This document shows positions 631-2,203 of a DNA stretch of 64,000 nt, piece after piece. Source of the stretch: Mesotoga sp. BH458_6_3_2_1 (GTDB taxonomy: Bacteria; Thermotogota; Thermotogae; Petrotogales; Kosmotogaceae); the NCBI RefSeq assembly GCF_003664995.1, contig NZ_JFHL01000013.1, positions 1-64,000 of the forward strand, written 5' to 3'. The stretch's first letter is position 1, and each line of letters starts with the position of its first letter. The notes beneath the pieces are model-generated. The model had not been told where the DNA came from. It saw only the letters and a list, made by a program, of their open reading frames with translations, and made no database searches. The position numbers and the translations under genes were made by a program.

Positions 631-678
631 AACCCGGTTTTGATAACCCGTTCTTGCTAACCCGCATCTTATAACCCG
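631..678. repeat. Tandem repeat, 14-base period with AACCCG core
   Basis: The hexamer AACCCG occurs at 631, 645, 659 and 673, exactly 14 bases apart. The eight intervening bases are only loosely conserved: each core is preceded by AT or CT and the previous core is followed by a pyrimidine-rich stretch. A poorer fifth copy may lie 14 bases upstream (617-622). Confidence 0.7.
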
Positions 679-712
679 ATATTCACGTTTTTCTTGTCGG
701 AGGACGGAGAAC

Positions 713-918
713 CGTTGACGGTCAACGTGGTTTCATAAGCGTTCAGCGGCTCTTTCGCCGCGCAGCGGACATTGCGACCTGGCGTGGTCTTCGCCAGCCT
801 TGCGTCCTGACATGGTTCTGTCAGCATTGCGACCGCCGATGTTTTTCGGCGCATTGCGTTCAATGTTTTATTCCAGCATCTCCTCCTGCCGAGGCAACCT
901 TGCGTTTTCCAGATGCTG
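713..918. repeat. Array of unlike hairpins joined by a conserved 9-base linker
   Basis: A linker of consensus C(A/C)TTGCG(A/T)(C/T) occurs at 770-778, 798-806, 825-833, 852-860 and 898-906. Between the first four copies lie perfect hairpins of unrelated sequence: CTGGCG/CGCCAG (779-797), CTGACA/TGTCAG (807-824) and CGCCGA/TCGGCG (834-851). Upstream lie CGTTGAC-G-GTCAACG (713-727) and GCGGC/GCCGC (746-761). Downstream, CAGCATCT/AGATGCTG (874-918) encloses TGCC-GA-GGCA (887-896) and the last linker. The stems differ in sequence but each is perfectly paired, which suggests selection for pairing. The 27-28 base spacing keeps open frames alive by chance; I do not consider this stretch protein-coding. 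Confidence 0.7.
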
Positions 919-1012: not shown

Positions 1013-2203
1013 TTGAAATCGAAAGTGGGTTACTCAACTGTCTATGCTATTCTCGGAATTCTCTTGGGAGCTCTTGCTCTTCTTAACTATCTCTTCCCGC
1101 TAAATCACATGCCCTCTCCAGACGGACCTCACAGCGTGGGGTTTCGTTCTTTCGAAGTGACGAATCCTGAACCGATAGGAGTTTCTGGAATCGATTACTC
1201 TGATTCCGCGAAGATACGTCTGGATATTTGGTATCCTGCAGATGGGGTTTCCGGTTATGAAAGAAAGGGTTGGATAAACAATGATCCGATTATCTTTGAA
1301 GGGTTCGAGGTTATGACCGGTTATCCAAAGGCTTTATTCGAACATCTATACAAAGTACGAACCAACTCATTCATAGGTGCACCGCCACTTATGGATTCGT
1401 CTAGTTGGCCTATTGTTATATTGCTTCTCGGTTGGTCGTCAATAAGTGAATTACATACCTCTCTGGCCGAGTCTTTGGCTAGCAGCGGATATCTTGTCGT
1501 AGGAATAGAGCATCCGGGCGCCTGTGCAGTAGTGACCTTTTCGGACGGTAGCGTCTATTATTTTTTGGGAAACGATCTTCTCGACGGATTGCTTGAAGGC
1601 ACTAGAGAGAATAAACTCAGGCTTCTGTCAGAGTATCTTTCTCGTGACATAGACTACGTAATTGAGTTTCTAAAAGAGATGAATGAAGATCCTCATTCAG
1701 ATTTCTTTGAAAGGTTGAATATGGAAGACATTGGTCTCTACGGCCATTCCGGAGGCGGGTGCGTCGCCATACGGTATTCGCTTTCAAACGAAGGAGTTCC
1801 GATGGTCTTGGCCGATCCTACCCTTGAGGGTTTCACCATTGAGGAACTGGGTTCAGGGCTTTCAAATCCAGTATTGCTGATGACTTCAAGCGAATGGGAA
1901 TCTGGCGTCAATGGCGGATTTCTTTCAAAGATTTCGGAAGCCTCGGCAAAACAGAACTATTACTTGAGTATAAGTGACATGAGACATGTAGACTTCGCAA
2001 TGGTCAGAAATCTCTCACCACTAACTTACTTCTTTGGCGAGACAGGAAAGTTCATGAACAACAAAGATGCGATGAATCGTCTTGACAGCGCGGTGAAGTT
2101 CTTCTTTGATAGTATTTTTTTCGGCAGAAGCGTTGAGGAACTTTTCAAGCTCTCGGATTCCGTGCCCGAATTCTCTTTAGATAAGATTAGTCTCTTCCAG
2201 TGA
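1013..2203 (+). CDS. Alpha/beta hydrolase, PAF-acetylhydrolase/dienelactone-hydrolase type
   Basis: A 396-residue predicted serine hydrolase. The TTG at 1013 is chosen because GGAGGTG stands at 1001-1007; the open frame extends further upstream, but that part lies over hairpin repeats and the promoter. An N-terminal hydrophobic segment (about residues 8-26) suggests a membrane anchor or signal. The nucleophile elbow is G-H-S-G-G-G with Ser246; Asp268 (ADPT) and His325 (MRHVDF) fit the Asp and His of a triad. This layout matches the platelet-activating-factor acetylhydrolase group, but the natural substrate cannot be named. The 3' end overlaps the convergent ispD by 17 bases. Confidence 0.8.
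   Translation: MKSKVGYSTVYAILGILLGALALLNYLFPLNHMPSPDGPHSVGFRSFEVTNPEPIGVSGIDYSDSAKIRLDIWYPADGVSGYERKGWINNDPIIFEGFEVMTGYPKALFEHLYKVRTNSFIGAPPLMDSSSWPIVILLLGWSSISELHTSLAESLASSGYLVVGIEHPGACAVVTFSDGSVYYFLGNDLLDGLLEGTRENKLRLLSEYLSRDIDYVIEFLKEMNEDPHSDFFERLNMEDIGLYGHSGGGCVAIRYSLSNEGVPMVLADPTLEGFTIEELGSGLSNPVLLMTSSEWESGVNGGFLSKISEASAKQNYYLSISDMRHVDFAMVRNLSPLTYFFGETGKFMNNKDAMNRLDSAVKFFFDSIFFGRSVEELFKLSDSVPEFSLDKISLFQ

Follow-up and report, generated by a model that had tools for sequence, protein, structure and literature searches.

The window, by which we mean the whole 64,000-nt stretch of DNA analysed, holds a single linker-hairpin array as found with the covariance model R1. The array lies in an island at ~490–910 made up, in order, of a GGGCGAAC palindrome, four AACCCG boxes, a GGAGAACCGTTGACGG module, a CCGC-GCA-GCGG hairpin and the linker-hairpin units themselves, the stems of which are perfect over 6 bp. 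A PAF-acetylhydrolase-like gene, used here as the anchor for finding orthologous loci, follows outside the element. At its left end (1–215) the contig begins inside a minus-strand open frame resembling a transposase fragment, with no Pfam match. The features of the locus are as follows:

490–509, no strand assigned: palindrome GGGCGAAC-AGCC-GTTCGCCC, of another repeat family of the islands; an exact match (0 expected by chance) that recurs beside other arrays
631–678, plus strand: four AACCCG boxes with a 14-bp period (3 pattern matches vs 0.01 expected)
699–727, plus strand: GGAGGACGGAGAACCGTTGACGGTCAACG module, recurrent in islands at many loci
758–768, plus strand: short hairpin CCGC-GCA-GCGG with a C-GNA-G tip, opening the array (from the sequence)
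770–778, plus strand: linker 1, CATTGCGAC (from the sequence and the genome pattern, as are linkers 2 and 3)
779–797, plus strand: hairpin 1, stem CTGGCG, loop TGGTCTT; 36 units with this stem type; part of the model R1 match
798–806, plus strand: linker 2, CCTTGCGTC
807–824, plus strand: hairpin 2, stem CTGACA, loop TGGTTC; a rare stem type with 2 perfect units in the set
825–833, plus strand: linker 3, CATTGCGAC
834–851, plus strand: hairpin 3, stem CGCCGA, loop TGTTTT; the commonest stem type (56 units); model R1 match
852–865, plus strand: linker 4, CATTGCGTT, and following bases, able to form a CATTG-CGTT-CAATG hairpin (from the sequence and a DNA fold)
886–897, plus strand: decayed short hairpin CTGCCGAGGCAA; CTGCC-GAA-GGCAG is intact at the same place in genomes G012 and G013
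898–906, plus strand: linker 5, CCTTGCGTT (from the sequence); CATTGTGTC in G012 and CATTGCGCC in G013
1013–2203, plus strand: PAF-acetylhydrolase-like gene (Pfam PF03403, E 2.8e-10)

The linkers that the first-pass annotation had placed at 770, 798, 825, 852 and 898 and its perfect hairpins at 779–797, 807–824 and 834–851 were confirmed exactly, as was the alternation of the two, although the hairpin that opens the array at 758–768 had been overlooked. In the region of linkers 4 and 5, the segment before the fifth linker proved to be a decayed hairpin copy (886–897, above), and the outer pairing of 874–881 with 911–918 is present in the window, but G012 and G013 lack it at their orthologous loci. 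The hairpins had been said to share no sequence, which is incorrect: all have 6-bp stems with the loops TGGTCTT, TGGTTC or TGTTTT, and the same stem types are met many times over. Nor is the array tied to the hydrolase, being one of many intergenic islands. The AACCCG module, which combines 6 constant with 8 variable bases and has no hairpin, is often found to the left of arrays elsewhere; AACCCG boxes also occur at many loci (L019, L026, L031, L361) as a second constant/variable array type.

Distribution and structure of the repeat family

The pattern CMTTGCGWY-N18-20-CMTTGCG matched 102 times in the 3.23-Mb genome from which the window comes, compared with 0 for the reversed control, and was found in 7 of 10 genomes of the genus. 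A one-unit covariance model, with which at most 150 candidates per genome were scored so that high counts are lower bounds, gave at least 114, at least 126, 80, 47, 29, 23 and 10 matches in the seven array-bearing genomes and 0–1 in the other three. Across a phylum scan of 103 genomes arrays were confined to Mesotoga; a single array assigned to another genus (G015) lies on a 3.2-kb contig and perhaps reflects a binning error or transfer. Searches for the exact pattern in wider species genomes and viral contigs gave only chance-like matches, near relatives possibly lying outside these scans, and among the 181 wider matches listed none had a 6-bp stem, the best reaching 5 pairs. Phage and plasmid collections held no match to the arrays, and the Rfam search found only tRNAs. 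In the literature searched, Mesotoga repeats were represented only by palindrome counts (PMC12306157) and the CGTC-3 REPs (PMC3733652).

Similar arrays fill related genomes, so the refutation that the first-pass annotation had set for itself does not apply. The arrays are not coding: of 129 array clusters, 0 were found to overlap a predicted gene, the gene calls for this and for the orientation counts below being made with a simple codon score. A protein-coding repeat was ruled out by the same count and by the 27/28-bp units, which break frame. In genome G008, GC skew sampled along the chromosome gave no usable origin/terminus signal for replication-strand bias; array positions there recur at a 76,303-bp offset between ~1.82–1.85 Mb and 1.90–1.92 Mb of contig C1, which suggests a ~76-kb tandem duplication or an assembly duplicate. 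In G012 (contig C8, 36000–66000; L054, L055) ~30 T-class units, nearly all on one strand, are concentrated within 30 kb among small genes that by eye look mobile, namely a toxin-antitoxin-like pair and four-helix-bundle-like genes.

The genus consensus of the hairpin unit is a 6-bp stem with a TGNTYT(T) loop. Among 359 units with distinct context, all six pairs were formed in 234, and the stems fall into about ten types that recur genome-wide, most of them one base pair away from another type, with both sides of the pair changed. When the 75 distinct hairpins were compared, stem cells were paired in 94% of cases vs 58% after shuffling, 153 stem cells were changed on both sides, and covariation was 0.796 vs 0.177 for the shuffled set, falling to 0.18 or less once the pairing was slid by 1–3 columns. 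Because kinship of the copies inflates such counts, we give weight to how many stem types there are and to the control with slid pairing. Stem entropy reached up to 1.9 bits, whereas that of the nearly invariant linkers was near 0 except at two two-letter positions, and the loops keep their G and T positions. The single-stranded parts, linker and loop, are the ones conserved, as would be expected if something recognised them.

The array is one class within a mosaic, and within each island all classes lie on the same strand. In the class with the sister linker CMTCACTTC, short hairpins are found alongside some of the stems already described, and the pattern of this linker matched 135, 88 and 83 times in three array-bearing genomes and not at all in the three array-free ones; short hairpins predominate in the class of the third linker, ACTGGC, which is present in the array-free G009 too. 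The short hairpins end in C-GNA-G or C-GNNA-G tips, which follow the rule of ultra-stable DNA mini-hairpins (PMC4686876). In the S class the closing pair was C-G in 95 of 95 cases, GNA was found in 60 of 65 triloops and GNNA in all 30 tetraloops, with the middle loop bases free to vary across distinct units; as the loop rule derives from related copies, the independent cases are fewer than these counts. The C-GNA-G tip is enriched in intergenic DNA and was seen in 52% of intergenic vs 4% of coding hairpins with a 3-nt loop (stems of at least 5 bp), and a GNA-type hairpin stands immediately before 120 of 163 T-class arrays.

Turnover at orthologous loci

For 40 locus pairs, in which an array lies beside the same gene in both genomes, orientation was the same in 33 and reversed in 6. 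Hairpin content differed in nearly all pairs compared, even where the flanking genes were 90–96% identical, the exceptions being L019/L361 and L002/L359. As orientation agrees but content differs, loci and strand persist whilst units are replaced, gained or lost. At the hydrolase locus one stem is swapped at an aligned position in G013 (hairpin 2, CTGACA to CCGGC), the sister linker class is found in G012, and G007 has a different array. Another locus bears different arrays in G000, G008 and G012 and is array-free in G007 and G011; a second anchor gene, belonging to a large paralogous family, was left out of the ortholog comparison. The genome from which the window comes has several arrays that are almost identical to one another, with their units in the same order. 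At L038 (G000, contig C11, 20009–20571) a 157–184-bp cassette holding a whole array is present in three to four copies in tandem, which differ by loss of one hairpin unit; this shows directly that cassettes are duplicated and units lost.

Folding level and the origin of paired stems

On balance, the array is probably one representative of an intergenic, non-coding mosaic repeat, specific to the genus and REP/BIME-like at the level of single-stranded DNA. Its units, each a constant linker plus a stem-loop, are strung head to tail on one strand, and the written strand would fold as single-stranded DNA, for example during replication or repair. Units could be exchanged between arrays via the constant linkers, by recombination or gene conversion, with the copying of multi-hairpin cassettes adding to the shuffling. 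Stems may stay paired because only foldable units would be substrates for a putative factor reading linker, loop and shape, or else because one arm may be corrected from the other by hairpin-templated repair. The first-pass annotation had suggested selection for structure together with recognition of the linker, and this gains partial support, pairing being kept while stem sequence changes and linker and loop are conserved; the replication slippage that it also proposed is one of two candidate explanations for the paired stems. A bolder version, which we consider unlikely, is that these are dispersed elements of a new kind, an interchangeable hairpin alphabet on constant single-stranded linkers that dedicated non-HUH machinery would recognise and shuffle as folded single-stranded DNA, rewriting the order between close species while locus and strand persist.

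The most serious competitor, though we consider it unlikely, is neutral renewal, in which replication template switching (quasipalindrome correction) would copy arm to arm and slippage or recombination at the linkers would shuffle the units, with neither a factor nor a function. The 234 perfect stems and the stem types, mostly separated by one-base-pair steps on both sides, fit this, and a single template-switching event has been proposed both to generate perfect stems and to preserve them (PMC8794818); no G-U intermediates are required. Reverse-complemented loops, the footprint of hairpin-spanning switches, were however seen in 0 of 289 units, although correction of an arm only would leave none, and neutral renewal leaves unexplained both the fixed linkers and loop positions amid varying stems and the C-GNA-G rule. 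Recognition of folded single-stranded DNA by a putative factor is the better fit to the fixed linkers and loop ends. With several hundred short stems whose sequence changes while pairing is kept, apparently at the DNA level, the arrays form a natural data set on which a long-standing question becomes testable, namely whether compensated stem changes come from selection for folding or from arm-to-arm repair.

Less probable still is an RNA-level element, in which the arrays would be transcribed and do their work as structured RNA, be it as mRNA stabilisers, as attenuators or as sites for RNA-binding proteins. Strong covariation would suit it, both strands fold as RNA better than shuffles (z −1.98 and −2.48), and the gene upstream shares the orientation of the array somewhat more often than not (44 vs 26, by codon-score gene calls), an excess that transcription of the element might likewise produce. 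Selection on RNA from either strand would be expected to permit G-U and so skew the mismatches, but over the outer five pairs G.T and A.C mismatches were about equal (22 vs 17). The tetraloops of the short hairpins are mostly GNYA, not GNRA, the tetraloop favoured in RNA; the downstream gene is not fixed in orientation (58 opposite, 51 same); Rfam returned no match to the arrays; and closely related species differ in how many hairpins a locus has and in their order. The balanced mismatches, the C-GNA-G and C-GNNA-G tips of the short hairpins, the unfixed downstream orientation and the GNYA tetraloops lead us to favour folded single-stranded DNA as the form in which the arrays would act, favoured rather than proven since GNNA loops can fold in RNA too. 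Folded as DNA, the window array does better than its shuffles only moderately (z −1.9 and −2.7). The arrays are also a warning that covariation alone is not proof of RNA.

That these are classical REPs moved by a Y1 (HUH) transposase, or RAYT, is very improbable: the arrays are indeed intergenic, palindromic, of high copy number and in tandem groups, in single-stranded DNA the motif that a RAYT recognises is short and lies 5′ of a hairpin (PMC8266576) and the window's own genome has two Y1 genes, but the GTAG tag is lacking, the stem is unlike the described CGTC-REP, Y1 is absent from the array-bearing G007, G008 (a single 2.97-Mb chromosome contig), G013 and G014 and present in the array-free G006 and G009, and a T-class linker lies within ~1.5 kb of only three of 13 Y1 loci (L016, L328 and the broken L329). 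For the arrays no mobilising enzyme was found, and no target-site duplication or sharp insertion unit was established. A separate palindrome, GGGGACTGAC..GTCTGTCCCC, lies near several Y1 genes (L016, at ~980 and 1907; L323; L326; L328) and may be the true REP of these transposases.

Comparison with known repeat systems

The alternation of constant and variable parts recalls CRISPR arrays and integron attC sites, the latter of which function as folded single strands. In a CRISPR array, constant repeats are separated by unique spacers; here the constant part has 9 nt, the variable part can pair with itself and recurs genome-wide as about ten stem types, the sites are dispersed in their hundreds, and no attC-like cassette layout was seen. 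The tips of the short hairpins resemble ultra-stable mini-hairpins of the d(GCGAAGC) type (PMC4686876), a rule that the long-loop T-class hairpins do not obey. Those mini-hairpins are known from oligonucleotides, and the literature searched describes no genomic repeat family of them. The arrays suggest that this DNA-specific structure, familiar from test-tube work, is used at scale in a genome.

The closest likeness is to REP/BIME elements (E. coli Y, Z1 and Z2; the GTAG superfamily), which are likewise short intergenic palindromes of high copy number in mosaic groups with linkers, the hairpin being recognised together with a short adjoining motif. As short, high-copy, mainly intergenic palindromes (102 copies; 0 of 129 clusters in genes) and as mosaics of hairpins and linkers in tandem groups, the arrays match what is said of REPs and BIMEs respectively. 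BIMEs, however, pair a REP with an inverted REP, whereas the linkers and GNA loops of an island all lie on one strand; the arrays further differ in that a constant linker separates every hairpin from the next and one loop is shared by about ten interchangeable stems. In place of a terminal GTAG, or CGTC with an 8–9-bp stem starting with A-T, they have the linker CMTTGCGWC and a 6-bp stem starting with C-G, the bases just before the stem being CGTC in many linkers, CGAC in others and CTTC in the sister class. The CGTC-3 REPs of Mesotoga prima and Kosmotoga olearia (PMC3733652) are also intergenic palindromes of the same organisms, but their 9-bp stems start with A-T pairs; a palindrome fitting their description, ATCCCGTA..TACGGGAT, adjoins arrays as a separate module. 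REPs moved by a RAYT need an accompanying Y1, a link broken here by the four array-bearing genomes that lack one. Since tests for the tag, for alternating orientation and for a link to RAYT all came out negative, the arrays are not members of REP/BIME as those families are defined, and constitute a real, well-supported family that is REP/BIME-like in its behaviour.
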